From positions 45,258,001 through 45,322,000 of the forward strand of contig NC_133167.1 of NCBI RefSeq assembly GCF_040802235.1: DNA of 64,000 nt, in the 5' to 3' direction. The notes beneath the pieces were generated by a model that made no database searches, was not told the origin of the DNA, and saw only the letters and a program-made list of their open reading frames with translations. Positions 13,122 through 43,018 of this stretch are shown piece after piece; within the stretch, counting starts at the first letter, position 1; every line of letters begins with the position of its first letter. Source of the DNA: Manis javanica. Its lineage: Eukaryota > Chordata > Mammalia > Pholidota > Manidae. The translations under genes were made by a program, and so were the position numbers.

Positions 13122-13819
13122 GAACAAAGGAAAAACTGAAGGAACAACACAGCAGCGGAATCACAGAACCCAAGAATGGACTAACAGGTACCAAAGGGAA
13201 AGGGACTGGGGAGGATGGGTGGGTAGGGAGGGATAAGGGGGGGCAAGAAGAAGGGGGGTATTAAGATTAGCATGCATAATGGGAGGGGGAGAAAGGGGAG
13301 GGCTGTGCAACACAGAGAAGACAAGTAGTGATTCTACAACATTTTGCAATGCTGATGGACAGTGACTGTAAAGGGGTTTATAGGGGGGACCTGGTATAGG
13401 GTAGAGCCTAGTAAACATAATATTCTTCATGTAAGTTTAGATTAATGATAACAAAAAGAAATAAAGAAAAGGGATTACTTACTGATAGGATAAAACTAAC
13501 TGTAAATCAATGATTAATGCATGCTTTAAATATCCTTAATTTTGATCACTTAAAGGGTGTCAGATGATCGGCTATGGAGGTACATTTTTCTGATAATATT
13601 CCTTTCTCTTAAAAAAAAAAATGAAGCAGTTCCTGTGTGGTGACCTCCAATGTGTTCTACACAATGGTATAAAGGGCATATCAAAGTGTGGGCAAAGGGT
13701 CTGTTTGTGTTTATACAGAGGATCAAAGCCTAATTTGGCTACCCAGAAAATGAACTAAAATACGATATGAAGAAGAACTTCCAACATCAGCACTCTTTGG
13801 AAGACTCATACTAGAAGAT

Positions 13820-14316
13820 GATCATCAAAAAACCTCAACAAAGATCCAGGCGCTGCTACAGCTGTAGCTGCATTCATCCCACCGGTTCCTGGACTTGCTA
13901 TGGGAATGAAGAAGGAGATATCTAAGCTGGCCTGTGCATACAGTAAAACAACAAATTTGACTGGATCTATACTGTTGGAACTCAACCAAGAATTAGGAGA
14001 AGTGCAAGTTGTAGTGCTCCAAAATCTTACAACTACAGACTATCTACTGTTAAAAGAACATATGGGATGTGAACAGTTCACAGGAATGGGTTGTTTTAAT
14101 TTGTCTGATTTCTCTCAGACTGTTCAAGTACAGTTGAACAATATCCATCATATCATAGATAAATGTACACAAATGCCTAGGATGCCTAACTGGTTTTCTT
14201 GGTTTCACTGGAGATGGCTGGTATTTACAGATCTGCTTTGGTTATGTAACTGTATTCCTATTATGTTAATGTGTGTGCACAATTTAATTAGTAGTTTAAA
14301 ACCTATACATGCTTAA
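13820..14316 (+). pseudogene. Retroviral env transmembrane-subunit remnant (ERV)
   Basis: An open stretch ends at 14316 (methionine at 13900). It resembles the TM subunit of class-I/gamma-like Env: a hydrophobic Ala/Val/Pro-rich segment before the first methionine, a heptad-like region with 'LLELNQEL', an 'LQN...DYLLLKEHMGCEQ' immunosuppressive-domain-like block followed by a cysteine pattern in which one residue of the usual CX6CC is Gly, a Trp-rich membrane-proximal part, and a C-terminal hydrophobic span. The SU part is absent, so it cannot be a functional envelope. The family call rests on motif resemblance. Confidence 0.75.
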
Positions 14317-14930
14317 GTTACTCTACAAGAAGATATGTCAAAGAAATAATCAATCTTCCTATGTTTTCTTCCGCCTGCTACTTCTATAGCTTTTCTTCTT
14401 CCTTCTTAATTACAACCCTTAAATAGAATTCATGTCTCGTATCGAATTTACAGAGTATCATAATTCCTCCAAGTGGTAAAGATACCTCAAGACAAATGCT
14501 GAGCATAGAAGCCACAGAGCATAAATCTGCAAAGTAAAAAGCTAACCTTTTCAAACAGTATTGCTTCTCTCTCACTTACCAACTTTACATTTCCCTGTAA
14601 TGCCCCGGAAGATGACTGGTTAGCCAGAGACGGGTAAGATTCCTCAAGTGAGGAACAACCTAAGACAGGCACAGTTGCAGGGGGGCCATCAGGTGAGAAA
14701 TTGGGGATCATCAGTGGTGAGGCTTAGAACCTCACCCCCCCTGTTTTGAGAGAAATCTTCTGCATCCGTGGATGGTTTAGTGCCCTTGTCTAGCTTGGAT
14801 TAACACATAGTCTACAGGCACACACCTGATCATCTACATTTGCTCTCTTACAACACTAAACTATGTTTTCTACCTTTATCTTGCATCTACCTACCACTTC
14901 AGCATTTTATTAAAAATAATAATAATAATC

Positions 14931-14965
<35 letters not shown>

Positions 14966-14973
14966 GGGAGAAA

Positions 14974-15295
14974 TGTGGGATCCACATATAAATCAAGTAT
15001 AAAAATCAAATGAATATTCATATTTGACCTGATTGTTTATAGTTCATAATGCGTGATCAAAACTGAAAGTTTCTGTGATGAATGCCCTTGTACTGTTCAC
15101 CATGTAAGAACTTATTCACTATGTAAGAATTTGTTCACCATATAAGAACTTGTTCTTTATGCTTCAGAAGATTGGAGACTGACGAGATTAAGCTTGAGGT
15201 GGATTAATGACTGTGCATTGAGCATTGAGTCCCCTATACAGAATTTTATTGTTGTTAACAACCATTTGATCAATAAATATGAGAGATGCCCTCTC
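14974..15295 (+). mobile_element. ERV LTR truncated at its polyadenylation site, copy 1
   Basis: The LTR begins TGTGGGATCC immediately after a polypurine tract ('aaagggagaaa'). It contains TATA-like 'tataaa' motifs early and AATAAA at 15272-15277, and it stops 18 nt later in an A-rich tract. No U5 follows, as expected if the copied RNA was polyadenylated at the end of R. The (AAT)n stretch just upstream (about 14915-14963) is part of the same module. Confidence 0.82.
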
Positions 15296-15353
15296 AAAAA
15301 AACAAAAAACAAAAAACAAAAAAAACAAAAGAAAAAAAAACAGGACAAAAAAA

Positions 15354-16045
15354 ATAACACAAGGATATTATATGATTCAAACAGTGCCAAAAATAAAAAG
15401 AAGAAATGAGAACTCAAAAAATAATAAGAAGAATAAGAATAATTTTAACCCTAACTAGTAAGACTACCATTGGGTTACTCTAGGATAAGCAACAGTAGAA
15501 TTAAAATAAGGAGGCAGATAGTTTCTCAAGGACATTGTAGCTCCAAGATTCTTTGAATCCTTGATTGTCACTGGTTCGATCTCCAAAGGTGAGGAAATTG
15601 AATTTTTTTGTACCCAGTGAGGATAAGCTTAACTGTTTTCAATTAACATATTTATTCTAGATGAACATAGGCACTCACCTATTCAAAATCCAGAGTTTGA
15701 TATCTACAATGAAAGAAAATATTAAAGTTTTGATGTAGTTGCACAATGTGAATTTTTTGGCCTATATTATAATTATTTTTAGAAATTTAAGATAATTAAA
15801 AGACACTAACCTGACTTTTGTTCATTTTCCAAGGGAATTTAATAACTCAATGCATTCTGTCTTACCTTGCTGTAAATAACTAGTTGGACAACTTCCATTT
15901 AGAGGGTCTATGATAGGTTTCAGAATTGAGGATCCACTTATATTATTGCCAGGAATTTCCAGGATCTAATAAAACTGCTAAACTGTAAGATGGCACTCTA
16001 AAGTCAATTTTACAGTTAATGTGTTTGGTATAAATTTTCTTTTAA
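15354..16045. other. TFPI intron sequence between two L1s
   Basis: AT-rich unique-looking sequence. Nothing was recognised in it. Confidence 0.5.
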
Positions 16046-22000: not shown

Positions 22001-22690
22001 GAGACAGGGCTGAAAAAGTTGGGAAAGCATCCCTCTACCTGCCAGGCAGCAACGTCTGACACTGCTGGGCTAGTGGGTGGTGTACTGGTGGTACTCAGGG
22101 CTAAGCTGCCATAAAGAGGAAGGGAGCATTTGGGACTCCCAAGAATGCCCAAGCTGTTGGACTGAAGGAGGACTGGGGAAGCATCCTCCACTTGTCCTTT
22201 CTTCTCCAGAGAGAGCTCTAGCCTATCCTTGCCCCTCTGCTAGTAAACCTTTCACACTGCCATTTTGGGTCTCAGTGGGACCAGTGGAGCATGACTGTCC
22301 CCCACTGGCAGCAGAAGTCTCAGCCTCCTGAGTGCTCCAACTCTCCCTATTGTCCAGCCCCACTAATCACCAGAACCCAGTGCAATGTGGTTGTGTTCCC
22401 AGAGCAGATCTCCAGAGCCAGGTGTGCAGAGTTCCTGAGCACCTATCTCCTCACTGCTCTGTTCCTCTTCCTTCTGCCTGTGGGCTGGAATGGGGGAAGG
22501 ACTTGGGTCCCACTTGATGGTAGCTCTGCCACTTTACTCTTCTCTCTGTGGTCTTTTCTTCTTCACCGGGTGTAATGGTCTGTTTTGCAGTCTTCAGGTT
22601 GTTTTCAGGGTTAACTGTATTTGCTGTAGTGTGTGTGTGGGAGAAGGTTTCTGCCTTGCCTTCCTAGGCCATCATCATTTTTCTCACTCC
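16046..22690 (-). mobile_element. Older near-full-length L1, minus strand
   Basis: A T-run at 16047-16056 is the poly(A) tail. From there the minus strand gives the 3'UTR, ORF2 remnants (C-terminal block at 16516-16782, endonuclease block at 19824-20129 with 'INIYAPNIGAPKYLK'), ORF1 remnants (20788-20997 and 21310-21501) and a GC-richer 5'UTR from about 21560 to 22690. Frameshifts and stops are frequent, so it is clearly older than the plus-strand elements. It lacks their monomeric 5'UTR and the env/LTR segment. It lies in the same orientation as TFPI transcription. Target-site duplications were not resolved. Confidence 0.88.
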
Positions 22691-23640: not shown

Positions 23641-23658
23641 AGAAAAAATAAAACCTAC
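23641..23658 (+). repeat. Target-site duplication of the outer nested L1 (left)
   Basis: 'agaaaaaataaaacctac' matches 47072-47089 at 17 of 18 positions. The two copies bracket the complete 23.4-kb nest. Confidence 0.88.
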
Positions 23659-24474
23659 GATGGAACCAAGATGGTGGCATGACTAGGACAGTGGGAATCT
23701 CCTCCCAAAAACACATATAATTTTGAAAATACAACAAATACAACTATCCCTAAAAGAGAGATCAGAAGACACAGGACAACAGCCAGACTACATCCACACC
23801 TGCGAGAACCCAGCGCCTGGTGAAAGGGGTAAGATACAAGCCGCAGCCCGGCGGGACCCGAGGCCCCTGACCACAGCTCCTGGCAGGAGGAGAGGAGTTG
23901 GAGCAGGGAGGGAGAGGGAGCTCAGGACTGCTAAACACCCAGCCCTAGCAATCCGCACCAGAGCGCAGACACACAGTGCGTGCGTGGGGTGCTGGAAACT
24001 AGGGAAGCAGGACAGTAAGACCTGTGAGTGGGTCCCACAGCCAGCACTCCTGGGACAAAGAAAAGCGAGTGCTTTTTGAAAGTCTTAAAGGGACAGGGAC
24101 CCAAAAGCTGGACGGAAGCATCCCGGGTAACAGTCCAGCAGCTGGAAATTCCAGGGAACTCCGGGCACACTAACACCCTGGGCAACAGCTCTGACACGCC
24201 TCACAGAGGAAAACAGCCAAACACCCCTTGTCCATTACCCCACTGGGGCCCCACCATAGCAGAACAGCAGCCAGAGGCTGGCCACGCCCACAGCAAGGGA
24301 GCTTGCTCCATACCGGCTGGGCAAGATACAGAGACCCAGTCTACATGCAATTGCCAAACACAAGCCACTAGGGGTCGCAGTTGTCCCAGTAAAGAAAGGC
24401 CAGGAGCAATTGGAAAATGTCTAGGCTCTCCCAGTTCACAGACATATCAATAGCATACCACTGCACCTATCAAT

Positions 24475-25528: not shown

Positions 25529-25663
25529 ATGGCAATAAGTACATACCTTTCAATAATCACCCAAAATGTAAATGGACTGAATGTACCAATCAAAAGACAC
25601 AGAGTAATAGAATGAATAAAAAACCAAAACCCATCCATATGCTGCTTACAAGAGACTCACCTC
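25529..25663 (+). pseudogene. L1 ORF2 5' start, interrupted (outer L1)
   Basis: It starts at ATG ('[18 protein letters not shown]') and runs to 'QETHL', where the middle L1 is inserted. An in-frame stop replaces Trp before 'IKNQ'. It continues at 43038. Confidence 0.88.
25654..25663 (+). repeat. Target-site duplication of the middle L1 (left)
   Basis: 'gactcacctc' here equals 43038-43047. The duplication may extend a few bases further left with mismatches. Confidence 0.85.
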
Positions 25664-27203
25664 GGGGGCAGAGCCAAGATGGCGGCGTGAGTAGAGCAGG
25701 GGAAATCTCCTCCCAAAAACACATAGAGCTATGAAAATATAACAAAGAAAAATCTTCCTAAAATAGAGACCACAGGACACAGGACAACATCCAGACCACA
25801 TCCACACCTGCAAGAACCCAGCACCTTGCGAAGGGGGTAAGATACAAGCCCTGGCCCGGCGGGACCCGAGCGCCCCTCCCCCCGGCTCCCGGCAGGTGGA
25901 AAGAATCCAGAGTGGATTTTTTTTTTTTTTTTTTGGCGAGTGCTTTTTGGAAGCCTTAAAGGGACAGGAACCCCGTTGCTAGGGAGGCAGGGTGGCGGGA
26001 CCGGTGAGCGGGTGCCTGGGACCGGCACTTGAGGACGGAGGAAATTGCACGTTTTTCCCCTTTTTTTTTCTCTTTTTGGCGAGTGCTTTTTGGAAGCCTT
26101 AAAGGGACAGGGACCCCAGTGCTAGGGAGGCAGGGCAGCGGGACTGGTGAGCAGGTGAATGGGACCGGTGCCTGAAGACAAAGGATATCGCGCATTTTTA
26201 CCTGCAGGACTGGTGGGCGGGTGCCTGAGACCGGCACTTGAGGATGGAGGAAATCGCACGTTTTTCCCCTTTTTTTTTCTCTTTTTGGCGAGTGCTCTTT
26301 GGAAGCCTTAAAGGGACAGGGACCCCGGTTCTAGGGAGGCAGGGCGGTGGGACTGGTGAGAGGGTGCCTGGGACCAGCGCCTGAGGACAAAGAATATCCC
26401 ACGTTATTCCCTGCGGGACCGGTGGGCGGTTGCCTGAGACCGGCACATGAGAACGGAGGAAATCGTGCGTTTTTCCTCTTTTTTTTTCTCTTTTTGGAGA
26501 GTGCCTTTTGGAAGCCTTAAAGGGACAGGGACCCTGGTGCTAGGGAGGCAGAGCGGCGGGACTGGTGAGGGGGTGCTTGGGACCGGCGCCTGAGGACAAA
26601 GAATATCGCGCATTTTTCCCTACGTGACCAGTGGGTGGGTGCTTTTTGGAAGCCTTGAAGGGACAGGGACCCTGGTGCTAGGGAGGCAGGGCAGCAGGAC
26701 CAGTGAGCGGGTGCCTGGGACTGGCACCTGAGGAAAAAAAAAAAAATCACGCGTTTTTCCTTTTTTTTTTTTTTTTTCTATTCCCTCTCTCATTGTTGCT
26801 GTAGTTGTTTTGGTTTGGAGAGTGCTTTTTGGAAGTCTTAAAGGGGCAGGACAGGTCACTTAGACCAGAGGCAGGGAATCTGGGTATCTCTGGGCACTCT
26901 AACCCCCTGGGCAGCAGGGAGCGCAGAGGCCCCTTACAGAGATAAATAGCCTCCCAGCCGCTCCCCCTCCAACGGTCCTCCACCATTTTGGAGGAGCAGC
27001 CCCAGCCAGTCCATGCCCACAGCAACAGCGGAGATAAACCACATAGCAACCGGGCAGGAAGTAGAAGCCCTGTCTGCACACAGCTGCCCAGCACGAGCCA
27101 CTAGAGGTCGCTATTCTCCCAGGTGAGGAAGGCCACAAACCAACAAGAAGGGAAGCTCCTCCAGCGGTCAATTGTACCAGCTCTGCACACTATCTCTATC
27201 ACC
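25664..27203 (+). promoter_or_regulatory. L1 5'UTR with tandem monomers (middle L1)
   Basis: Unit starts lie at about 25935, 26078, 26287, 26496, 26634 and 26817, so two units are ~209 bp and others are ~140 bp. The difference equals one internal ~66-bp sub-repeat. A YY1-like 'caagatggcggc' is at 25675-25686, the position where human L1 also has a YY1 site. A T-run at about 25918-25934 precedes the monomers. Confidence 0.75.
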
Positions 27204-28094
27204 ATGAAAAGACAAAACTACAGGCAGACAAAGATCACAGAGACAACACCTGAGAAGGAGACAGACCTAACCAGTCTTCCTGAAAAAGAATTCAAAATAA
27301 AAATCATGAACATGCTGACAGAGATGCAGAGAAAATTGCAAGAGCAATGGGATGAGATGCAGAGAAAAATGCAAGAGCAGTGGGATGAAGTCCGGAGGGA
27401 GATCACAGATGTCAGGAAGGAGATCACAGAAGTGAAACAATCCCTGGAAGGATTTATAAGCAGAATGGATAAGATGCAAGATGCCATTGAAGGAATAGAA
27501 GACAGAGAACAGGAACGTAAAGAAGCTGACATAGAGAGAGATAAAAGGATCTCCAGGAATGAAACAACACTAAGAGAACTATGTGACCAAGCCAAAAGGA
27601 ATAATATTCGTATTATAGGGATACCAGAAGAAGAAGAAAGAGGAAAAGGGATAGAAAGTCTCTTTGAAGAAATAATTGCTGAAAACTTCCCCAAACTGGG
27701 GGAGGAAATAATCGAACAGACCATGGAATTACACAGAAGCCCCAACAGAAAGGATCCAAGGAGGACAACACCAAGACACATAGTAATTAAAATGGCAAGG
27801 ATCAAGGACAAGGAAAGAGTTTTAAAGGCAGCTAGAGAGAAAAAGGTCACCTATAAAGGCAAACCCATCAGGCTAACATCAGACTTCTCAACAGAAACCC
27901 TACAGGCCAGAAGAGAATGGCATGGTATACTTAATGCAATGAAACAGAAGGGCCTTGAACCAAGGATACTGTATCCAGCATGACTATCATTTAAATATGA
28001 TGGCGGGATTAAACAATTCCCAGACAAGCAAAAGCTGAGGGAATTTGCTTCCCACAAACCACATCTACAGGGCATCCTACAGAGACTGCTCTAA
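27204..28094 (+). pseudogene. L1 ORF1 with one premature stop (middle L1)
   Basis: The 891-bp frame is the same length as the intact ORF1 and has one lesion: CGA to TGA at 27981-27983, after 'RILYPA'. This removes the last 37 residues of the C-terminal domain. The coiled coil with two 11-residue EMQ(R)KMQEQWD-type units, the RRM block 'NIRIIGIPEEEERGKGIES' and 'REKKVTYKGKPIRL' are all present. Confidence 0.93.
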
Positions 28095-28289
28095 ATGGGA
28101 GAACCCCTAAAAAGAGCACAGAACAAAACACACAACCTATGAAGAATGGAGGAGGAGGAATAAGAAGGGAGAGAAGAAAAGAATCTCCAGACAGTGTATA
28201 TAACAGCTCAATAAGCGAGCTAAGTTAGGCAGTAAGATACTAAAGAAGCTAACCTTGAACCTTTGGTAACCACAAATCTAAAGCCTGCA

Positions 28290-31200
28290 ATGGCAATAAG
28301 TACATATCTCTCAATAGTCACCCTAAATGTAAATGGACTTAATGCACCAATCAAAAGACACAGAGTAATAGAATGGATAAAAAAGCAAGACCCATCTATA
28401 TGCTGCTTACAATAAAACTCACCTTAAACCCAAAGATAAGCATAGACTAAAAGTCAAGGGATGGAAAAACATATTTCAGGCAAACAACAGTGAGAAGAAA
28501 GCAGGGGTTGCAGTACTAATATCAGACAAAATAGACTTCAAAACAAAGAAAGTAACAAGAGATAAAGAAGGACACTACATAATGATAAAGGGCTCAGTCC
28601 AACAAGAGGATATAACCATTCTAAATATATATGCACCCAACAGAAGAGCACCAGCATATGTGAAGCAAATACTAACAGAACTAAAGAGGGAAATAGACTG
28701 CAATGCATTCATTTTAGGAGACTTCAACACAACACTCACCCCGAAGGATAGATCCACCAGGCAGAAAATAAGTACGGACACAGAGTCACTGAACAACACC
28801 CTAGAACAGATGGACCTAATAGACATCTATAGAACTCTACATCCAAAAGCAACAGGATGTACATTCTTCTCAAGTGCACATGGAACATTCTCCAGAATAG
28901 ATCACATACTAGCTCACAAAAAGAGCCTCAGTAAACTCCAAAATATTGAAATTCTACCAACCAATTTTTCAGACCACAAAGGTATAAAAGTAGAAATAAA
29001 TTCTACAAAGAAAACAAAAAGGCTCACAAACACATGGAGGCTTAACAACATGCTACTAAATAATCAATGGATCAATGAACAAATCAAAATAGAGATCAAG
29101 GAATATATAGAAACAAATGACGACAACAACACAAAGCCCCAACTTCTGTGGGACGCAGCGAAAGCAGTCTTAAGAGGAAAGTATATAGCAATCCAGGCAC
29201 ACTTGAAGAAGGAAGAACAATCCCAAATGAATAGTCTAACATCACAATTATCGAAACTGGAAAAAGAAGAACAAATGAGGCCTAAAATCAGCAGAAGGAG
29301 GGACATAATAAAGATCAGAGAAGAAATAAACAAAATTGAGAAGAATAAAACGATAGCAAAAATCAATGAAACCAAGAGCTGGTTCTTTGAGAAAATAAAC
29401 AAAATAGATAAGCTTCTAGCCCAACTTATTAAGAGAAAAAGAGAATCAACACAAATCAACACAATCAGAATTGAGAATGTAAAAATCACGACAGACTCCA
29501 CAGAAATACAAAGAATTATTAAAGACTACTATGAAAACCAATATGCCAACAAGCTGGGAAACCTAGAAGAAACGGACAACTTCCTAGAAAAATACAACCT
29601 CCCAAGACTGACCAAGGAAGAAACACAAAAGTTAAACAAACCAATTACGAGCAAAGAAATTGAAATGGTAATCAAAAACCTACCCAAGAACAAAACCCCG
29701 GGGCCAGACAGATTTACCTCGGAATTTTATCAGACACACAGAGAAGACATAATACCCATTCTCCTTAAAGTGTTCCAAAAAATAGAGAAGAGGGAATACT
29801 CCCAAACTCATTCTATGAACCCAACATCACCCTAATACCAAAACCAGGCCAAGACCCCACCAAAAAAGAAAATTACAGACCAATATCCCTGATGAATGTA
29901 GATGCAAAAATACTCAATAAAATATTAGGAAACAGAATTCAACAGTATATCAAAAGGATCATACACCATGACCAAGTGGGGTTCATCCCAGGGATGCAAG
30001 GATGGTACAACATTCGAAAATCCATCAACATCATCCACCACATCAACAAAAAGAAAGACAAAAACCACATGATCATCTCCATAGATGCTGAAAAAGCATT
30101 TGACAAAATTCAACATCCATTCATGATAAAAACTCTCAGCAAAATGGGAATAGAGGGCACGTACCTCAACACAATAATGGCCATTTATGATAAACCCTCA
30201 GCCAGCATTATACTGAACAGCAAGAAGCTGAAAGCATTTCCTCTGAGATCGGGAACCAGACAGGGATGCCCACTCTCCCCACTGTTATTTAACATAGTAC
30301 TGGAGGTCCTAGCCACGGCAATCAGACAAAACAAAGAAATACAAGGAATCCAGATTGGTAAAGAAGAAGTTAAACTGTCACTATTTGCAGATGATATGAT
30401 ACTGTACATAAAAAACCCTAAAGACTCCACTCCAAAACTACTAGAACTGATATTGGAATACAGCAAAGTTGCAGGATAGAAAATTAACACACAGAAATCT
30501 GTAGCTGAAAGAAAATCAGGAAAACAATTCCATTCACCATTGCATCAAAAAGAATAAAATACCTAGGAATAAACCTAACCAAAGAAGTGAAAGACTTATA
30601 CTCTGAAAACTACAAGTCACTCTTAAGAGAAATTAAAGGGGACACTAATAAATGGAAACTCATCCCATGCTCATGGCTAGGAAGAATTAATATCATCAAA
30701 ATGGCCATCCTGCCCAAAGCAATATACAGATTTGATGCAATCCCTATCAAACTGCCAGCAACATTCTTCAATGAACTGGAACAAATAATTCAAAAATTCA
30801 TGTGGAAACACCAAAGACCCCGAATAGCCAAAGCAATCCTGAAAAAGAAGAATAAAGTAGGGGGGATCTCACTCCCCAACTTCAAGCTCTACTACAAAGC
30901 CATAGTAATCAAGACAATTTGGTACTGGCACAAGAACAGAGCCACAGACCAGTGGAACAGATTAGAGACTCCAGACATTAACCCAAACATATATGGTCAA
31001 TTAATATTTGGTAAAGGAGCCATGGACATACAATGGCAAAATGACAGTCTCTTCAACAGATGGTGCTGGCAAAACTGGACAGCTACATGTAGGAGAATGA
31101 AACTGGACCATTGTCAACCCCATATACAAAGGTAAACTCAAAATGGATCAAAGACCTAAATGTAAGTCATGAAACCATTAAACTCTTGGAAAAAAACATA

Positions 31201-31480
31201 GGCAAAAACCTCTTAGACATAAACATGAGTGACCTCTTCTTGAACATATCTCCCCGGGCAAGGAAAACAACAGCAAAAATGAGCAAGTGGGACTACATTA
31301 AGCAGAAAAGCTTCTGTACAGCGAAAGACACCATCAATAGAACAAAAAGGAACCCTACAGTATGGGAGAATATATTTGAAAATGACACATCCGATAAAGG
31401 CTTGACGTCCAGAATATATAAAGAGCTCACACGCCTCAACAAACAAAAAACAAATAACCCAATTAAAAAATGGACAGAGG
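28290..31480 (+). pseudogene. L1 ORF2, first part, broken (middle L1)
   Basis: It starts at ATG in '[18 protein letters not shown]'. Lesions relative to the inner copy: a frameshift and stop near 28410 in the QETHL block, a 1-nt deletion near 29790, a TAG for Tyr at about 30478, a ~28-bp deletion near 30505, and a 1-nt deletion near 31118. Endonuclease motifs ('GDFNT', 'SRIDHIL', 'SDHKG') and 'SLFADDM' remain readable. The inner L1 is inserted at 31480. Confidence 0.93.
31465..31480 (+). repeat. Target-site duplication of the inner L1 (left)
   Basis: 'aaaaaatggacagagg' equals 40219-40234. The preceding 'ccaatt' gives a TTTT/AA cleavage site on the bottom strand, the preferred L1 endonuclease target. 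Confidence 0.93.
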
Positions 31481-31732
31481 GGGGGGCGGAGCCAAGATGG
31501 CGGCGTGAGTAGAGCAGTGGAAATCTCCTCCCAAAAACACATAGACCTATGAAAATATAACAAAGAAAAATCTTCCTAAAATAGAGACCACAGGACACAG
31601 GACAACATCCAGACCATATCCACACCTGCAAGAACCCAGCGCCTTGTGAAGGGGGTAAGATACAAGCCCCAGCCCGGCGGGACCCGAGCGCCCCTCCCCC
31701 CGGCTCCCGGCGGGTGGAGAGAAACCGGAGCG

Positions 31733-31771
<39 letters not shown>

Positions 31772-33125
31772 GCGAGCGCTTTTTGGAAGCCTTAGAGGGA
31801 CGGGCCCCCGTTGCTGGGGAGGCAGGGTGGTGGGACCGGTGAGGAGGTGCCTGGGAACGGCGCCGGAGGACAAAGAATATCCCGCGTTTCTCCCTGCGAG
31901 ACCTGGGGGCGGGTGCCTGAGACCGGTGCCTGAGGACGGAGGAGGTCGCGCGTTTTTCCCCTTTTTTTTTCTCTTTTTGGCGAGCGCTTTTTGGAAGCCT
32001 TGAAGGGACGGGGACCCCAGTGCTAGGGAGGCACGGTGGCGGGACTGGTGAGCGGGTGGCTGGGACCGGCGCCTGAGGACAAAAAATATCCCCCGTTTTT
32101 CCCTGCGGGACCGGTGGGCGGGTGCCTGAGACCGGCACTTGAGGACAGAGGAAATCTCGCGTTTTTCCCCTTTTTTTTTTCTCTTTTCTGCGAGTGCTTT
32201 TTGGAAGCCTAAAAGGGACAGGGACCTCGGTGCTAGGGAGGCAGGGCGGCGGGACTGGTGAGCGGGTGCCTGGGACCGGCACCTGAGGACAAAGAATATC
32301 CCGCATTTTTCCCTGTGGGACCGGTGGGTGGGTGCCTGAGACCAGCACCTGAGGACGGAAGAAATCGCGCGTTTTTCCCCTTTTTTTTCTCTCTTTTTGC
32401 CGAGTGCTTTTTGGAAGCCTTGAAGGGACAGGGACCCCGGTGCTAGGGAGGCAGGGCGGCGGGACTGGTGAGCGGGTGCGTGGGACCAGTGCCTGAGGAC
32501 AAAGAATATTGAGCGTTCCTTCCCTGCGGGACCGGTGGGTGGGTGCTTTTTGGAAGCCTTGAAAGGACAGGGACCCTGGTGCTAGGGAGACAGGGCAGCA
32601 GGACCAGTGAGCGGGTGCCTGGGACCGGCACCTGAGGACAAAAAAAAAAAAAAAAAAATCGCTTGTTTTTTCCTTTTTTTTCCTTTTTTTTTTTCTTTGT
32701 TTCTGTTCCCTCTCTCATTGTTGCTGCTGTTGTTTTGGTTTGGAGAGTGCTTTTTGGAAATCTTAAAGGGGCAGGACAGGTCACTTAGACCAGAAGCAGG
32801 GAATCTGGGGATCTCTGGGCACTCTAACCCCCTGGGCAGCAGGGAGCACAGAGGCCCCTTACGGAGATAAATAGTCTCCTGGCTGCTCCCCCTCCAACGG
32901 GGCTCCACCATTTTGGAGGAACAGCCCCAGCCAGGCCAAGCCCACAGCAACAGCGGAGATAAACCCGAAAGCAACTGGGCAGGAAGCAGAAGCCCTGTCT
33001 GCGCACAGCTGCCCAGCACAAGCCACTAGAGGTCGCTATTCTCCCAGGAAAAGGCTACAAACCAACAAGAAGGGAAGCTCTTCCAGCGGTCACTTGTACC
33101 AGCTCTGCAAACTATCTCTATCACC
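31481..33125 (+). promoter_or_regulatory. L1 5'UTR with tandem monomers (inner L1)
   Basis: Monomers start at 31771, 31979, 32189 and 32399 (208-210 bp each), the last shortened to ~142 bp, followed by units at 32541 and 32741. Each full monomer holds one spacer block ('gcgagtgctttttggaagcc...') and two related ~66-bp sub-repeats built on 'accggtgggcgggtgcctg' and ending in 'cgcgcgtttttcccc'. Poly(T) runs 31737-31770. The non-monomeric rest (32760-33125) leads to the ORF1 ATG. Confidence 0.8.
31492..31504 (+). promoter_or_regulatory. YY1-like site at the L1 5' end
   Basis: 'ccaagatggcggc' lies ~12 nt inside the element. Human L1 has a YY1 site at the equivalent place that sets the transcription start. 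The match is by motif only. Confidence 0.5.
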
Positions 33126-34016
33126 ATGAAAAGGCAAAACTACAGGCAGACAAAGATCACAGAGACAACACCTGAGAAGGAGACAGACCTAACTAGTCTT
33201 CCTGAAAAAGAATTCAAAATAAAAATCATGAACATGCTGACAGAGATGCAGAAAAAAATGCAAGAGCAATGGGATGAGATGCAGAGAAAAATGCAAGAGC
33301 AGTGGGATGAAGTCCGGAAGGAGATCACAGATGTCAGGAAAGAGATCACAGAAGTGAAACAATCCCTGGAAGGATTTATAAGCAGAATGGATAAGATGCA
33401 AGAGGCCATTGAAGGAATAGAAGCCAGAGAACAGGAACGTATAGAAGCTGACATAGAGAGAGATAAAAGGATCTCCAGGAATGAAACAACACTAAGAGAA
33501 ATATGTGACCAATACAAAAGGAAAAACATTCGTATTATAGGGATACCAGAAGAGGAAGAAAGAGGAAAAGGGATAGAAAGTGTCTTTGAAGAAATAATTG
33601 CTGAAAACTTCCCCAAACTGGGGGAGGAAATAATCGAACAGACCATGGAATTATACAGAACCCCCAACAGAAAGGATCCAAGGAGGACAACACCAAGACA
33701 CATAATAATTAAAATGGCAAGGATCAAGGACAAGGAAAGAGTTTTAAAGGCAGCTAGAGAGAAAAAGGTCACCTATAAAGGAAAACCAATCAGGCTAACA
33801 TCAGACTTCTCAACAGAAACCCTACAGGCCAGAAGAGAATGGCATGATATACTTAATGCAATGAAACAGAAGGGCCTTGAACCAAGGATACTGTATCCAG
33901 CACGACTATCATTTAAATATGATGGTGGGATCAAACAATTCCCAGACAAGCAAAAGCTGAGGGAATTTGCTTCCCACAAACCACCTCTACAGGGCATCCT
34001 ACAGGGACTGCTCTAG
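33126..34016 (+). CDS. L1 ORF1 protein (RNA-binding chaperone), intact
   Basis: A 296-residue protein starting at ATG 33126. ORF1p trimerises through an N-terminal coiled coil, coats L1 RNA and acts as a nucleic-acid chaperone. Coiled coil spans roughly residues 30-110 and contains two adjacent 11-residue repeats (EMQKKMQEQWD and [11 protein letters not shown]) followed by two 7-residue repeats (VRKEITD, VRKEITE). The RRM follows ('NIRIIGIPEEEERGKGIES'), then the C-terminal domain ('TTPRHIIIKMARIKDKERVL', 'REKKVTYKGKPIRLTSDFS', 'RILYPARLSFKYDGG'). It ends 'GILQGLL' at TAG 34014-34016. ORF2 follows after 195 bp, the usual bicistronic L1 layout. Confidence 0.97.
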   Translation: MKRQNYRQTKITETTPEKETDLTSLPEKEFKIKIMNMLTEMQKKMQEQWDEMQRKMQEQWDEVRKEITDVRKEITEVKQSLEGFISRMDKMQEAIEGIEAREQERIEADIERDKRISRNETTLREICDQYKRKNIRIIGIPEEEERGKGIESVFEEIIAENFPKLGEEIIEQTMELYRTPNRKDPRRTTPRHIIIKMARIKDKERVLKAAREKKVTYKGKPIRLTSDFSTETLQARREWHDILNAMKQKGLEPRILYPARLSFKYDGGIKQFPDKQKLREFASHKPPLQGILQGLL

Positions 34017-34211
34017 ATGGGAGCACCCCTAAAAAGAGTACAGAACAAAACACACAACATATGAAGAATGGAGGAGGAGGAATAAGAAGGGAGAGAAGAA
34101 AAGACTCTCCAGACAGTGTATATAACAGCTCAATAAGCGAGCTAAGTTAGGCAGTAAGATACTAAAGAAGCTAACCTTGAACCTTTGGTAACCACGAATC
34201 TAAAGCCTGCA

Positions 34212-37200
34212 ATGGCAATAAGTACATATCTCTCAATAGTCACCCTAAATGTAAATGGACTTAATGCACCAATCAAAAGACATAGAGTAATAGAATGGAT
34301 AAAAAAGCAAGACCCATCTATATGCTGCTTACAAGAAACTCACCTTAAACCCAAAGATAAGCATAGACAAAAAGTCAAGGGATGGAAAAACATATTTCAG
34401 GCAAACAACAGTGAGAAGAAAGCAGGGGTTGCAGTACTAATATCAGACAAAATAGACTTCAAAACAAAGAAAGTAACAAGAGATAAAGAAGGCCACTACA
34501 TAATGATAAAGGGCTTAGTCCAACAAGAGGATATAACCATTCTAAATATATATGCACCCAATACAGGAGCACCAGCATATGTGAAGCAAATACTAACAGA
34601 ACTAAAGAGGGAAATAGACTGCAATGCATTCATTGTAGGAGACTTCAACACACCACTCACCCCAAAGGATAGATCCACCGGGCAGAAAATAAGTAAAGAC
34701 ACACAGGCACTGAACAACACACTAGAACAGATGGACCTAATAGACATCTATAGAACTTTACATCCAAAAGCAACAGGATATACATTCTTCTCAAGTGCAC
34801 ATGGAACATTCTCCAGAATAGACCACATACTAGCTCACAAAAAGAGCCTCAGTAAATTCCACAATATTGAAATTCTACCAACCAATTTTTCAGACCACAA
34901 AGGTATGAAAGTAGAAATAAATTCTACAAAGAAAACAAAAAGGCTCACAAACACATGGAGGCTTAACAACATGCTACTAAATAATCAATGGATCAATGAA
35001 CAAATCAAAATAGAGATCAAGGAATATATAGAAACAAATGACAACAACAACACTAAGCCCCAACTTCTGTGGGATGCAGCGAAAGCAGTCTTAAGAGGAA
35101 AGTATATAGCAATCCAGGCACACTTGAAGAAGGAAGAACAATCCCAAATGAATAGTCTAACATCACAACTATTAAAACTGGAAAAAGAAGAACAAATGAG
35201 GCCTAAAGTCAGCAGAAGGAGGGACATAATAAAGATCAGAGAAGAAATAAACAAAATTGAGAAGAATAAAACAATAGCAAAAATCAACGAAACCAAGAGC
35301 TGGTTCTTTGAGAAAATAAACAAAATAGATAAGCCTCTAGCCCAACTTATTAAGAGAAAAAGAGAGTCAACACAAATCAACATAATCAGAAATGAGAATG
35401 GAAAAATCATGACAGACTCCACAGAAATACAAAGAATTATTAAAGACTACTATGAAAACCTATATGCCAACAAGCTGGAAAACCTAGAAGAAATGGACAA
35501 CTTCCTAGAAAAATACAACCTCCCAAGACTGACCAAGGAAGAAACACAAAAGTTAAACAAACCAATTACAAGCAAAGAAATTGAAACAGTAATCAAAAAA
35601 CTACCCAAGAACAAAACCCCGGGGCCGGACGGATTTACCTCGGAATTTTATCAGACACACAGAGAAGACATAATACCCATTCTCCTTAAAGTGTTCCACA
35701 AAATAGAAGAAGAGGGAATACTCCCACACTCATTCTATGAAGCCAACATCACCCTAATACCAAAACCAGGAAAAGACCCCACCAAAAAAGAAAATTACAG
35801 ACCAATATCCCTGATGAATGTAGATGCAAAAATACTCAATAAAATATTAGCAAACAGAATTCAACAGTATATCAAAAGGATCATACACCATGACCAAGTG
35901 GGGTTCATCCCAGGGATGCAAGGATGGTACAACATTCGAAAATCCATCAACATCATCCACCACATCAACAAAAAGAAAGACAAAAACCACATGATCATCT
36001 CCATAGATGCTGAAAAAGCATTTGACAAAATTCAACATCCATTCATGATAAAAACTCTCAGCAAAATGGGAATAGAGGGCAAGTACCTCAACATAATAAA
36101 GGCCATATATGATAAACCCACAGCCAGCATTATACTGAACAGCGAGAAGCTGAAAGCATTTCCACTGAGATCGGGAACCAGACAGGGATGCCCACTCTCC
36201 CCACTGTTATTTAACATAGTACTGGAGGTCCTAGCCACGGCAATCAGACAAAACAAAGAAATACAAGGAATCCAGATTGGTAAAGAAGAAGTTAAACTGT
36301 CACTATTTGCAGATGATATGATACTGTACATAAAAAACCCTAAAGACTCCACTCCAAAACTACTAGAACTGATATCGGAATACAGCAAAGTTGCAGGATA
36401 CAAAATCAACACACAGAAATCTGTAGCTTTCCTATACACTAACAACGAATCAATAGAAAGAGAAATCAGGAAAACAATTCCATTCACCATTGCATCAAAA
36501 AGAATAAAATACCTAGGAATAAACCTAACCAAGGAAGTGAAAGACTTATACTCTGAAAACTACAAGTCACTCTTAAGAGAAATTAAAGGGGACACTAATA
36601 AATGGAAACTCATCCCATGCTCATGGCTAGGAAGAATTAATATCGTCAAAATGGCCATCCTGCCGAAAGCAATATACAAATTTGATGCAATCCCTCTCAA
36701 ATTACCAGCAACATTCTTCAATGAATTGGAACAAATAATTCAAAAATTCATATGGAAACACCAAAGACCCCGAATAGCCAAAGCAATCCTGAAAAAGAAG
36801 AATAAAGTAGGGGGGATCTCACTCCCCAACTTCAAGCTCTACTACAAAGCCATAGTAATCAAGACAATTTGGTACTGGCACAAGAACAGAGCCACAGACC
36901 AGTGGAACAGATTACAGACCCCAGAAATTAACCCAAACATATATGGTCAATTAATATTTGATAAAGGAGCCATGGACATACAATGGCAAAATGACAGTCT
37001 CTTCAACAGATGGTGCTGGCAAAACTGGACAGCTACATGTAGGAGAATGAAACTGGACCATTGTCTAACCCCATATACAAAGGTAAACTCAAAATGGATC
37101 AAAGACCTGAATGTAAGTCACGAAACCATTAAACTCTTGGAAAAAAACATAGGCAAAAACCTCTTAGATATAAACATGAGTGATCTCTTCTTGAACATAT

Positions 37201-38027
37201 CTCCCCGGGCAAGGAAAACAACAGCAAAAATGAGCAAGTGGGACTACATTAAGCTGAAAAGCTTCTGTACAGCGAAAGACACCATCAATAGAACAAAAAG
37301 GAACCCTACAGTATGGGAGAATATATTTGAAAACGACAGATCTGATAAAGGCTTGACGTCCAGAATATATAAAGAGCTCACACGCCTCAACAAACAAAAA
37401 ACAAATAACCCAATTAAAAAATGGGCAGAGGAACTGAACAGACAGTTCTCCAAAAAAGAAATACAGATGGCCAAGAGACACATGAAAAGATGCTCCACAT
37501 CGCTAATTATCAGAGAAATGCAAATTAAAACTACAATGAGGTATCACCTCACACCAGTAAGGATAGCTGCCATCCAAAAGACAAACAACAACAAATGTTG
37601 GCGAGGCTGTGGAGAAAGGGGAACCCTCCTACACTGCTGGTGGGAATGTAAATTAGTTCAACCATTGTGGAAAGCAGTATGGAGGTGCATCAAAATGCTC
37701 AAAACAGACCTACCATTTGACCCAGGAATTCCACTCCTAGGAATTTACCCTAAGAACGCAGCAATCAAGTTTGAGAAAGACAGATGCACTCCTATGTTTA
37801 TCGCAGCACTATTTACAATAGCCAAGAATTGGAAGCAACCTAAATGTCCATCTGTAGATGAATGGATAAAGAAGATGTGGTACATATACACAATGGAATA
37901 CTACTCAGCCATAAGAAGTGGAAAAATCCAACCATTTGCAGCAACATGGATGGAGCTGGAGAGTATTATGCTCAGTGAAATAAGCCAAGCGGAGAAAGAG
38001 AAATACCAAATGATTTCACTCATCTGA
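34212..38027 (+). CDS. L1 ORF2 protein (endonuclease and reverse transcriptase), intact
   Basis: A 1271-residue protein, close to the 1275 of human L1. I chose the ATG at 34212 ('[18 protein letters not shown]') because the open frame further upstream has only a non-ATG codon. The N-terminal AP-like endonuclease shows 'QETHL', '[10 protein letters not shown]', 'GDFNTPL', 'SRIDHIL' and 'SDHKGM'. The reverse transcriptase shows '[16 protein letters not shown]' and the catalytic 'FADD' at about residues 699-702. The C-terminal zinc-knuckle-like motif '[18 protein letters not shown]' starts at about residue 1129. It ends '..MISLI' because TGT is TGA, three residues shorter than the L1s at 9493 and 43038; the middle L1 shares this stop. 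No internal lesion was seen. Confidence 0.97.
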
Positions 38028-38803
38028 GGAGTATAGGAACAAAGGAAAAACTGAAGGAACAAAACAGCAGCAGAATTACAGAACCCAAAAATGGACTAAC
38101 AGGTACCAAAGGGAAAGGAACTGCGGAGGATGGGTGGGCAGGGAGGGATAAGGGGGGGGGAAGAAGAAGGGGGGTATTAAGATTAGCATGCATGGGGGGG
38201 AGGGAGAAAGGGAAGGGTGGGCCGCACAACACAGAGAGGACAAGTAGTGACTCTACCACATTTTGCTAAGCTGATGGACAGTAACCATAATGTGGTTGTT
38301 AGGGGGGACCTGATATAGGGGAGAGCATAGTAAACATAGTATTCTTCAGGTAAGTGTAGATTAAAAATTTAAAAAAAAAAAAAAGAAAGAAAGAAAGAAA
38401 AGGGGGATTACTCCTTAACAGGATAAAACTATTGGTAAATCAAAGATCAACGCATGCTTTAAATATCCTTAATGTTGATCACTTAAAGGGTGTCAGATGA
38501 TCAGCTATGGAGGTACTCTTTTCTGATAATATTCCTTTCTCTTAATTAAAAAAAAAAAAAAAAAAGCAGTTACTGTGTGCTGACCTCCAATGAGTTCTGC
38601 ACAGTGGTATAGAGGGCATGTCAAAGTGTGGGCAAAGGGTCTGTTTGTTTCTACGCAGAAGATCAAGGCCTAGCTTGGATACCCAGAAAATGAACTAAGA
38701 TACGATATGAGGAGGAGCTTCCGGCATCAGCACTCTCTGGAGGACTCGTGCCGGGGGATGATCATCAAAAAGCCTCCACAGGGATCCGGACGATGCTGCG
38801 GGT

Positions 38804-39245
38804 GTGGCTGCATCCAGCCCACCGTCTCCTGGACTTGCCATAAGAAGGAGGAGGGAGATGTCTAGGCTGGCATGTGCATACAGTGAGACAACGAATTTGA
38901 CTGGATCTGTACTGTTGGAACTCAACCAGGAGTTGGGAGGGGTGCAAGTTGTAGCACCCCAAAATCTCATGACTATAGACTATCTATGGTTAAAAGAACA
39001 TATGGGATGTGAACAGATCCCAGAAATGGGCTGCTTTAATTTGTCTGATGGTTCACGTACAGTTGGAAAATATCCATCATATCATAGATAAATTTTCACA
39101 AATGCCTAGGGTGCCTAAATGGTTTTCTTGGCTTCACTGGAGATGGCTGGTAATTATAGATTTGCTTTGTTTATGTCACCGTATTCCTATTATGTTAATA
39201 TGTGTGTGCAAATTAGTTAGTAGTTTAAAACCTATACATACTTAA
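38804..39245 (+). pseudogene. Retroviral env transmembrane-subunit remnant, frameshifted (copy 2)
   Basis: Homologous to 13820-14316 and 41606-42058. A deletion of about 11 nt near 39049, just after the 'GCFNLSD' block, splits the frame, so the N-terminal and C-terminal halves are in different frames (38804-39091 and 39009-39245). Non-functional. Confidence 0.8.
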
Positions 39246-39882
39246 GGTACTATACAAGAAGATATGTCAAAGAAATAATCAATCCTCCCAAGTTTCCTTC
39301 ATATGCTACATCTATAGCTTTTCTTCTTCCTTCCTAATTACAAACCTTAAATAGAATTCGTGCCTCATATCGAATTTACCGAGTATCATAATTCCTCCAG
39401 GTGGTAAAGATACCTCGAGACAAGTGCTGGGCATAGAAGCCACAGGGCATAAATCTGCAAAGAAGTAAAAAGCTAACCTTTGCAAACAATATGGCTTCTC
39501 TCTCACTTACCAACTTTACATTTCCCTGTATGGCCCCGGAAGATGACTGGTTAGCCAGAGACGGGTAAGATTCCTCAAGGGAGGAACAACCTAAGACAGG
39601 CACAGTCGCAGGGGGGCCATCAGGTGAGAATTTGGGGATCAACAGAGGTGAGGCTCAGAACCTCACCCCCCCTGCTTTGAGAGAAATCTTCTGCATCCGT
39701 GGATGTCTTGCTGCCCTTGTCTAGCCTGGATTAATACTTAGTCCATAGGCACACACCTGATCATCTGATCATCTATATTTGCCTTCTTACAGCACTAAAC
39801 TATGTTTTCTACCTTTATCTTGCATTTACCTACCACTTCAGCATTTTATTAAAAATAAAAATAATAATAATAATAGGAGAAA

Positions 39883-40205
39883 TGTGGGATCAACATATAA
39901 ATCAAGTACAAAAATCAAATGAATATTCATATTTGACCTGATGGTTTATAGGTCATATTGCATGATCAAAACCGAAAGTTTCTGTGATGAATGCCCTTGT
40001 ACTGTTCACCATGTAAGAATTTATTCACTCTGTAAGAATTCGTTCACCATGTAAGAACTTGTTCGTTATGCTTCAGAAGATTGGAGACTGACGAGAATTA
40101 GGCTTGAGATGGATTAATGATTGTACATTGAGCCTTGACCCCCCTATACTGAATTTTATTGTTGTTAACAACCATTTGATCAATAAATATGAGAGATGCC
40201 CTCTC
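39883..40205 (+). mobile_element. ERV LTR truncated at its polyadenylation site, copy 2
   Basis: It starts TGTGGGATCAAC after a polypurine-like tract. AATAAA is at 40182-40187 and the sequence stops after 'ctctc' in the poly(A) run. U5 is absent. Strongly similar to the copies at 14974 and 42699. Confidence 0.85.
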
Positions 40206-40218
40206 AAAAAAAAAAAAA

Positions 40219-40234
40219 AAAAAATGGACAGAGG
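40219..40234 (+). repeat. Target-site duplication of the inner L1 (right)
   Basis: Identical to 31465-31480. The ORF2 frame of the middle L1 resumes here without loss of sequence. Confidence 0.93.
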
Positions 40235-40830
40235 AACTGAACAGACAGTTCTCTAAAAAAGAAATACAGATAGCCAAGAGACACATGAAAAGATGCTCCA
40301 CATCGTTAATTATCAGAGAAATGCAAATTAAAACTACAATGAGGTATCACCTCACACCAGTAAGGATAGCTGCCATCCAAAAGGCAAACAACAACAAATG
40401 TTGGCGAGGCTGTGGAGAAAGGGGAACCCCCCTACACTGCTGGTGGGAATGTAAATTAGTTCAACCATTGTGGAAAGCAGTATGAAGGTTCATCAAAATG
40501 CTCAAAACAGACCTACCATTTGACCCAGGAATTCCATTCCTAGGAATTTACCCAAAGAACGCAGCAATCAAGTTTGAGAAAGACAGATGCACCCCTATGT
40601 TTATCACAGCACTATTTACAATAGTCAAGAATTGGAAGCAACCTAAATGTCCATCGGTAGATGAATGGATAAAGAAGATATGGTACATATACACAATGGA
40701 ATACTACTCAGCCATAAGAAGTGGAAAAATCCAACCATTTGCAGCAACATGGATGGAGCTGGAGAGTATTATGCTCAGTGAAATAAGTCAAGCGGAGAAA
40801 GAGAAATACCAAATGATTTCACTCATCTGA
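40235..40830 (+). pseudogene. L1 ORF2, last part (middle L1)
   Basis: It continues the ORF2 C-terminus of the middle L1 from 'RGAEELNRQ'-type sequence onwards, with the cysteine motif '[18 protein letters not shown]'. A TGG to TGA change at 40483-40485 truncates it. It ends '..MISLI' at 40830, sharing the derived early stop with the inner L1. Confidence 0.92.
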
Positions 40831-41605
40831 GGAGTATAGGAACAAAGGAAAAACTGAAGGAACAAAACAGCAGCGGAATTACAGAACCCAAAAATGGACT
40901 AACAGGTACCAAAGGGAAAGGAACTGGGGCGGATGGGTGGGCAGGGAGGGATAAGGAGGGGGGAAGAAGAAGGGGGGTATTAAGATTAGCATGCATGGGG
41001 GGAGGGAGAAAGGGGAGGGTGGGCTGCACAACACAGAGAGGACAAGTAGTGACTCTACAACATTTTGCTAAGCTGATGGACAGTAACCGTAATGTGGTTG
41101 TTAGGGGGGACCTGATATAGGGGAGAGCATAGTAAACATAGTATTCTTCATGTAAGTATAGATTAAAAATTTAAAAAAAAAAGAAAGAAAGAAAGAAAAG
41201 GGGGATTACTCCTTGATAGGATAAAACTATTGGTAAATTAAAGATCAATGCATGCTTTAAATATCCTTAATGTTGGTCACTTAAAGGGTGTCAGATGATC
41301 AGCTATGGAGGTACTCTTTTGTGATAATATTCCTTTCTCTTAATAAAAACAAACAAACAAACAAAAAGCAGTTACTGTGTGCTGACCTCCAATGAGTTCT
41401 GCACAGTGGTATAGAGGGCATGTCAAAGTGTGGGCAAAGGGTCTGTTTGTTTCTATGCAGAAGATCAAGGCCTAGCTTGGATACCCAGAAAATGAACTAA
41501 GATACGATATGACGAGGAGCTTCTGGCATCAGCACTCTCTGGAGGACTTGTGCCGGGGGATGATCATCAAAAAGCCTCCACAGGGATCCGGACGATGCTG
41601 CGGTT

Positions 41606-42058
41606 GTGGCTGCATCCAGCCCACCTTCTCCTGGACTTGCCATAGGAATGAGGAGGGAGATGTCTAAGCTGGCATGTGCATACAGTGAGACAACAAATTT
41701 GACCAGATCTGTACTGTTGGAACTCAACCAGGAGTTGGGAGGGGTGCAAGTTGTTGCTCTCCAAAATCTTACGACTATAGACTATCTACGGTTAAAAGAA
41801 CATATGGGATGTGAACAGATCCCAGAAATGGGCTGCTTTAATTTGTCTGATTTCTCTCAGACTGTTCAAGTACAGTTGGACAATATCCATCATATCATAG
41901 ACAAATTTTCACAAATGCCTAGGGTGCCTAAATGGTTTTCTTGGCTTCACTGGAGATGGATGGTAATTATAGATTTGCTTTGTTTATGTCACCGTATTCC
42001 TATTATGTTAATATGTGTGTACAAATTAGTTAGTAGTTTAAAACCTATACATACTTAA
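41606..42058 (+). pseudogene. Retroviral env transmembrane-subunit remnant, open frame (copy 3)
   Basis: A ~150-codon open stretch with no ATG at its first codon (first methionine about 15 codons in). It shows the same order of features as copy 1: 'LLELNQELGG', the 'LQN...DYLRLKEHMGCEQ' block, the Gly-Cys in place of a Cys pair, a Trp-rich stretch and a C-terminal hydrophobic span. There is no SU domain or signal peptide. It could be translated only if an upstream start is supplied. Confidence 0.78.
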
Positions 42059-42698
42059 GATACTCCACAAGAAGATATGTCAAAGAAATAATCAACCCTC
42101 CCATGTTTTCTTCCATATGCTACCTCTATAGCTTTTCTTCTTCCTTCCTAATTACAACCCTTAAATAGAATTCATGCCTCATATCGAAGTTACCGAGTAT
42201 CATAATTCCTCCAGGTGGTAAAGATACTTCGAGACAAGTGCTGGGCATAGAAGCCACAGGGCATAAATCTGCAAAGAAGTAAAAAGTAAACCTTTTCAAA
42301 CAATATGGCTTCTCTCTCACTTACCAACTTTACATTTCCCTGTATGGCCCCGGAAGATGACTGGTTAGCCAGAGACGGGTAAGATTCCCCAAGGGAGGAA
42401 CAACCTAAGACAGGCACAGTCGCAGGGGGGCCATCAGGTGAGAATTTGGGGATCAACAGAGGTGAGGCTCACAACCTCACCCCCCTGCTTTGAGAGAAAT
42501 CTTCTGCATCCGTGGATGTTTTGCTGCCCTTGTCTAGCCTGGATTAATACTTAGTCCATAGGCACACACCTGATCATCTGATCATCTACATTTGCCCTCT
42601 TACAGCACTAAACTATGTTTTCTACCTTTATCTTGCATCTACCTACCACTTCAGCATTTTATTAAAAATAAAAAAAATAATAATAATAAAGGGAGAAA

Positions 42699-43018
42699 TG
42701 TGGGATCAACATATAAATCAAGTACAAAAATCAAATGAATATTCATATTTGACCTGATTGTTTATAGGTCATAATGCGTGATCAAAACAGAAAGTTTCTG
42801 TGATGAATGCCCTTGTACTGTTCACCATGTAAGAATTTATTCACTATGTAAGAATTCGTTCACCATGTAAGAACTTGTTCATTATGCTTCAGAAGATTGG
42901 AGACTGACGAGAATTAGACTTGAGATGGATTAATGATTGTACATTGAGCCTTGACCCCCCTATACTGAATTTTATTGTTGTTAACAACCATTTCAATAAA
43001 TATGAGAGATGCCCTCTC
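42699..43018 (+). mobile_element. ERV LTR truncated at its polyadenylation site, copy 3
   Basis: It begins TGTGGGATCAAC after 'aaagggagaaa'. AATAAA is at 42995-43000 and poly(A) starts 18 nt later. A 3-nt deletion precedes the AATAAA relative to the other copies. Confidence 0.85.

Follow-up and report, generated by a model that had tools for sequence, protein, structure and literature searches.

The closest described relatives of the element analyzed here are found among several kinds of retrotransposon. SVA (SINE-R), a composite retrotransposon of hominoids, has the 3′ end of env plus a long terminal repeat (LTR) as its 3′ part, and the 3′ transduction families of human LINE-1 (L1), which are small families of unique flank, carry sequence from beyond the element's own 3′ end, with another poly(A) signal, inside the target-site duplication (TSD). 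On the 5′ side, according to the passages drawn on here, mammalian L1s recruit new 5′ untranslated regions (UTRs), as in perissodactyls (PMC5872511; see also PMC13174262), and the L1 template-switch chimeras with U6, Alu, and mRNA that are described in the corresponding passages of the latter source are 5′ fusions (PMC13174262). Here, we analyzed a window of 64,000 nucleotides from the pangolin Manis javanica (G000:C12:45258001-45322000, the whole stretch being meant wherever the window is mentioned), searched its genome (2.56 Gb in 63 contigs), and describe an L1 lineage for which it is strongly supported that an env–LTR module from an endogenous retrovirus (ERV) is carried as an inherited 3′ part. 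This L1 with an ERV tail is real, large, of single origin, and recently amplifying.

Four plus-strand L1s are of interest in the window, hereafter A, outer, middle, and inner, and self-comparison of the window shows A, middle, and inner to be homologous through their 3′ ends. Behind its A-rich L1 end, each of these three has a tail of ∼1.8 kb on the plus strand (13471..15295 in A, 41200..43018 in the middle, and 38402..40205 in the inner L1), closed by poly(A) after 15295 (from 15296), 43018, and 40205, respectively, and the terminal LTR ends 18 nt behind AATAAA in all three. The first-pass annotation had proposed exactly this, namely that three L1s (the one at 9493, the middle, and the inner) share a segment made of an env transmembrane (TM) remnant, a polypurine tract, and an LTR that stops 18 nt after AATAAA in poly(A), and the self-comparison bears it out.

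The inner L1, full-length and with its tail spanning 31481..40205 (plus strand), lies between the copies of a 16-bp TSD (AAAAAATGGACAGAGG, at 31465 and 40219) and breaks up the middle L1 with its tail (25664..43018, plus strand; TSD GACTCACCTC at 25654 and 43038); the nest in turn breaks up the outer L1 (23659..47084, plus strand; TSD AAAACCTAC at 23650 and 47081), which has no ERV tail. Because each has a TSD of its own, the nesting of inner in middle in outer is proved. The TSDs of the inner and middle elements enclose L1 plus tail, so that, as the first-pass annotation had concluded, the segment moved with the L1; both elements thereby display what characterizes L1 3′ transduction, namely additional sequence that lies within the TSD and is bordered by the A-rich end of the L1 on one side and a further poly(A) on the other. 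L1 A (9493..13470, plus strand), delimited by self-comparison and open frames, consists of a 5′UTR and part of open reading frame (ORF) 1 joined to the 3′ part of ORF2 and a 3′UTR, with an internal deletion of ∼2.7 kb near 11048, and is without a convincing TSD (6 bp in A-rich DNA).

In the inner L1, ORF1 (33030..34013, plus strand; 328 aa from stop to stop, first Met at residue 33) matches Pfam Transposase_22 (3e-25) and Tnp_22_dsRBD (3.8e-20), the RNA-binding and dsRBD-like domains of L1, and the full-length ORF2 (34158..38024, plus strand; 1289 aa from stop to stop) has endonuclease and reverse transcriptase with FADD present, its residues 22-1289 aligning to human ORF2p. A second genomic copy (L081) likewise has a full-length ORF2 with endonuclease and reverse transcriptase. 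The hallmarks of target-primed reverse transcription are found as well, with TSDs, poly(A), and frequent 5′ truncation (inside the tail in 8 of the 20 sampled copies introduced below). The 5′UTRs at 9763-10333, 25995-26642, and 31753-32546 contain tandem units of ∼210 bp, the number of which varies between copies.

The composition of the tail is clearest in A, where an env TM remnant (13822..14316, plus strand), open over 164 codons and matching in PDB the fusion TM of avian sarcoma/leukosis virus (ASLV; 8.2e-10), is followed by an (AAT)n repeat with the polypurine tract AAAGGGAGAAA (14907..14973, plus strand) and by an LTR that runs from TG to the poly(A) site without U5 (14974..15295, plus strand; AATAAA at 15272). 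In the inner and middle tails, the LTR begins at about 39883 and about 42699, respectively. The tail is retroviral: its TM frame matches the ASLV fusion TM, and a two-LTR provirus (locus L039) holds the same sequence. Its source is an alpharetrovirus-like ERV, of which it comprises the pol/env boundary, the env TM without the surface part (SU), the polypurine tract, and the LTR up to the poly(A) site. The tails do not have the complete, U5-containing LTR of an ERV provirus or solo LTR, since they end in poly(A) whereas proviral LTRs run on into U5. The proteins of the tail gave no convincing family match in Pfam, no Rfam family or structured RNA was found in the tail, and a tRNA search returned none. 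An early impression that many copies stop before the LTR, with alignments ending near 1520, was rejected because the alignment breaks at an expanded (AAT)n repeat, as seen in L040, which has the whole LTR.

Some tails show rearrangements of their own. Tandem LTR ends ∼370-378 bp apart occur in L045 (C1:2242110-2244490) and at C1:2241791, in L029 (C1:41050265), and at C1:6426337/6426715; the repeated unit is (AAT)n, polypurine tract, LTR, and A-run, with an identity between the paired LTRs of 98.2% in L045 and 95.0% in L029, and perhaps arose by slippage between the A-tail and (AAT)n during reverse transcription. In L013 (C6:46305850), a 3′ LTR piece is inserted behind TM, after which the rest of the tail follows again with a full LTR.

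The tail is part of a family with tens of thousands of 3′ ends, far beyond a local curiosity. A 29-letter query for the LTR–poly(A) end, allowing up to 2 mismatches, gave 27,208 matches genome-wide, when the reversed pattern used as a control gave 0. Every fifth of the first 100 exact matches was fetched, yielding 20 loci that represent exact matches within the first 11.6 Mb of one chromosome (C1) and from which free proviral LTRs are left out by design, as the pattern demands poly(A). The segment start is reached in 12 of these loci, and an L1 3′ end lies directly upstream in 12/12; the other 8 are 5′-truncated inside the tail, as is often the case with L1 insertions, and proviral pol or SU was seen in 0/20. 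Eight loci cut from the first search, one of them the window's own copy, are likewise linked to L1. The linkage also holds in reverse: with a 30-letter query for the young L1 3′ end (up to 1 mismatch; 4,950 matches genome-wide), all 13 exact ends in the first 11.58 Mb of C1 were found to be followed on their own strand, at a distance of 1834-1848 bp, by an LTR–poly(A) end, for a chance expectation of about 0.013 per site at that distance. The count of L1-linked against free proviral copies that had been called for at first pass thus came out entirely on the L1 side in the full-reach sampled copies, and the segment is not mostly independent of L1 among them.

When everything fetched is considered, with the proviso that some elements stand in two rows (L001/wA, L063/L039, L073/inner copy, L074/L080, L075/L081, and L024/L041), L1 is directly upstream of the segment start in 37 rows, with SU in 0/37 and a gap of 0 between segment and TM in the 34 that are measurable; pol is upstream in 12 rows, with SU in 12/12 and a gap of 887-926 in the 10 measured. 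In 13 further rows, the gap is 0 and the upstream side is interrupted or beyond the fetched flank.

The proviral side was approached through the pol piece just upstream of the segment, which gave few candidate proviruses (247 at first look), 40 of them scored; the proviral loci read are the 10 best-scoring of these 40, plus L039 and L042. Provirus L039 has an LTR at either end, with 88% likeness between the pair over 445 bp, and SU between the segment start and TM. In the 10 proviral loci cut, pol runs straight into the segment with SU behind (partial in L067 and L069), and an L1 was seen at the pol/env boundary in none of them. LTRs continuing into U5-like sequence account for 25 of 100 LTR places among the matches listed; the ratio of ERV to L1-linked copies rests on these 25/100 places and on the 247 first-look candidates. 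Relative to the fetched proviruses, the tails lack ∼0.9 kb of env SU. That SU was spliced out was considered and rejected, as the missing stretch is not bounded by GT-AG, and no precursor of the deletion was found among the fetched proviruses. The junction reads ..TTTATTAAAA(C/T)AAAAAGGGGGATTACTCCC.. in proviruses and L1 3′UTR, A-rich stretch, AAAAGGGGGATTACTCC.. in L1-linked copies, the ERV part of the tail starting right behind TT/AAAA of the provirus sequence.

In a tree built from TM and the 0.6 kb downstream of it, with two proviral pieces as the root, L041b is the basal L1-linked copy. It belongs to the L1 L079, has the SU deletion in common with the others, and extends 20 nt farther, into U5, before its poly(A) begins, which marks an early stage at which the 3′ end had yet to settle at CTCTC. 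A younger L1, full-length and tailed, has in turn split this basal tailed L1 (L041/L024, C1:7786738; L079) by inserting into an A-run of its tail. The U5-tailed end occurs in about ten places genome-wide (up to 3 mismatches), two of which were fetched: L082 is a truncated polypurine tract–LTR copy with an apparent TSD (AAAACTAGCTG), and L083 is an LTR adjoining an old L1. Above L041b come an older group that includes A (pairwise differences of 4-8%) and then a ladder to a younger group with the middle and inner copies; the inner copy differs from its closest sampled copies by 0.5-1.0% and the older from the younger group by about 9-13%, with L046 and the middle copy between. The comparison of L1 3′ ends with the segment's history, another check suggested at first pass, gave congruent distances for the last 0.5 kb of L1 and the tail (Mantel r 0.94, 0/2000 permutations; 19 of 23 copies, four being too short in L1). 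No independent second capture was seen among the copies examined, so that what the first-pass annotation had termed a recurrent 3′ transduction stands as an inherited 3′ module and loses its recurrence, one capture followed by vertical inheritance being the better term.

The family is also young. When 1490 bp of the inner tail served as the query, 40 copies were scored, and the 39 besides the inner one itself match it along its entire length at 99-100% identity; five of the closest, whose sequence was read, differ at 4-5 of the 1490 positions, follow an L1, end in A-tails, and lie in different flanks. At about 2.2e-9 neutral substitutions per site per year, the youngest copies would be of the order of a million years old or less. 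Open ORF1 and ORF2 occur in the inner L1 and in L081, which are 99.1% identical over 8660 bp, and a third copy (L080) is broken; present-day activity of the tailed lineage seems plausible. For the end of the outer L1, in which the absence of a tail was read directly, none of 40 scored matches except itself exceeds 95%; on this measure, the outer L1 is an older family.

We consider it probable that all this goes back to one capture of an ERV 3′ part, then inherited vertically as the L1 3′ end in a lineage amplifying until very recently. A pangolin L1 lineage would once have gained the ERV part behind its own A-rich 3′ end, most likely from a provirus whose pol/env boundary had received a sense-oriented L1 at TT/AAAA, the transcript of this L1 then continuing as far as the signal of the 3′ LTR. 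Since then, the LTR AATAAA would end the L1 transcript, so that each new insertion would be primed on the LTR poly(A) tail and the tail passed on as the L1 3′ end; the tailed lineage would have replaced its tail-less ancestor and amplified until very recently. The inherited module is supported by the two-way linkage, the one shared junction and SU deletion, the congruent distances, and the TSDs around L1 plus tail. As to the route, the L1 endonuclease consensus is TTTT/AA, of which TT/AAAA is the reverse complement, and an ERV part starting there favors the source L1 in a provirus with read-through that the first-pass annotation had envisaged, although a switch of template from one A-rich stretch to another would leave the same picture. 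Several points weigh against this explanation: the SU deletion is left unexplained, with no GT-AG at its ends; the A-rich DNA at the junction is favorable to a template switch too; ATTAAA persists at the native L1 end (5/11 older and 11/12 younger copies); and no source locus, that is, an L1 in a provirus with its 5′ junction, was seen in the 12 proviral rows fetched, no search with a junction query having been made.

In the competing route, reverse transcriptase would have started at the poly(A) end of an SU-deleted or processed ERV transcript and then, within an A-rich stretch, switched to the poly(A) tail of an L1 RNA; the fused insertion would have become the founder without any L1 ever lying in a provirus. 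This would need no source locus, in keeping with the 12 proviral rows, it predicts an ERV part that starts at its own poly(A) end, as observed, and the junction is A-rich on both sides, also in the basal copy L079. We hold it to be rather unlikely, in that the ERV side begins right behind TT/AAAA, as an insertion would leave it, and in that template-switch chimeras usually join the other RNA 5′ of L1 rather than 3′. That the ERV is itself the mobile unit, with the L1s being chance neighbors of free LTRs and proviruses or the products of segmental duplication, is extremely improbable. Free ERV LTRs with U5 and the two-LTR provirus do exist; yet the L1-linked copies have one junction and one SU deletion that none of the fetched proviruses has, the TSDs enclose L1 plus tail, the tails have poly(A) and no U5, and linkage of 12/12 and 13/13 refutes such a reading for the copies tested. 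Local segmental duplication, which the first-pass annotation had named among its refuting conditions, is rejected on account of the own TSDs and different flanks of the checked copies and is excluded for the nested pair. L1 template-switch chimeras as such are known, and their likeness to the pangolin element is the fusion of L1 with another RNA, from which those in the relevant passages of PMC13174262 differ by their 5′ position.

What the tail does in the lineage favored above can be approached from the decay of its parts. The LTR AATAAA is kept in 21/23 copies, and at the native L1 end AATAAA is found in 5/11 older and 1/12 younger copies; with ATTAAA persisting in the younger group, the native signal is weakened rather than demonstrably lost. 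We are evenly divided on whether the pangolin L1 lineage now runs on the 3′-processing signal of the ERV LTR, its own AATAAA having decayed, and whether it was with this exchange that the tail-less lineage gave way to the tailed one; such use of the LTR signal in living cells would be consistent with the sequence pattern. Of 24 distinct copies (26 rows, two loci being double), 11 have a clean TM frame; that of the inner copy is interrupted by a deletion of 11 nt, and the TM span is 11-12 nt short in 8 of the 12 sampled copies with full reach. Selection on TM is not supported either, as its dN/dS of 0.58 is close to the 0.64 and 0.71 of the shifted frames, and there is therefore no sign of a working TM protein. 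The simplest role for the tail would be 3′ end formation, the remainder being a passenger and the TM frame dispensable. It is doubtful that it has been kept for more, whether a TM protein, an RNA-export element, or an escape from host silencing: the persistence of 1.8 kb in a lineage with up to about 13% divergence among its copies and the replacement of the tail-less lineage would fit such a function, but the state of the TM frame speaks against it, RNA folding of the tail, computed for copy A, is unremarkable (z of -0.39 and +0.70), and hitchhiking on a successful master lineage suffices.

When set beside the systems described at the outset, the pangolin element can be said by analogy to have the kind of 3′ part known from SVA SINE-R and, in how it probably arose, to resemble L1 3′ transduction, with the difference that the L1 in question is autonomous and gave rise to a lineage. 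SVA, itself non-autonomous, contains CCCTCT hexamers together with Alu-like and VNTR (variable number of tandem repeats) parts, whereas the pangolin ERV piece ends a full L1 with ORF1 and ORF2 and comes from another, alpharetrovirus-like ERV. Unlike the transduced flanks of human L1 families, the pangolin tail is retroviral and has become fixed in a lineage whose 3′ ends number in the tens of thousands. The recruitment of 5′UTRs, as presented in parts of PMC5872511 and PMC13174262, is alike in that a non-coding end is replaced and founds a successful lineage; the pangolin swap differs by lying at the 3′ end and being ERV-derived. The passages of PMC13174262 on LTRs and retroviruses do not mention an ERV-tailed fusion like that of the pangolin, and PMC12584738, which deals with pangolin ERVs, has in the passages drawn on one provirus interrupted by a LINE-1, not an L1 with an ERV tail. 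No report of such an L1 family was found in the open-access literature searched, and pangolin models in Dfam or Repbase may already contain pieces of it.

Outside this subject, three consecutive sets of ACE-like exons were observed at G000:C4:168955813-168983713, the third without some of the exons in the list, which are perhaps ACE plus an ACE3-like gene. Exons of ACE2 itself were located with Pfam PF01401 on contig C19; for two of them the pangolin ACE2 structure 7dhx gives the best PDB match (43 of 43 and 48 of 49 aligned residues), and for a third it ranks first among ACE2 entries, behind two rows of two-domain ACE, which identifies the genome as that of a pangolin. With ACE2 being X-linked in mammals, C19 is the X chromosome, and the eighteen contigs numbered before it would agree with the 2n = 38 of Manis javanica.

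From the perspective of retrotransposon evolution, these observations show that a retroviral 3′ end can be taken up by an autonomous LINE and retained as that LINE rises to a successful lineage, as a 3′ counterpart of the known 5′UTR swaps and an independent parallel to SVA SINE-R. Tens of thousands of sites have in this way received an LTR with U3 sequence with no retroviral integration involved, and counts of LTRs in the pangolin would consequently be misread as solo LTRs. Finally, the dated series of copies, from the U5-containing basal one to near-identical young ones, makes the evolution of an L1 3′ end directly testable.

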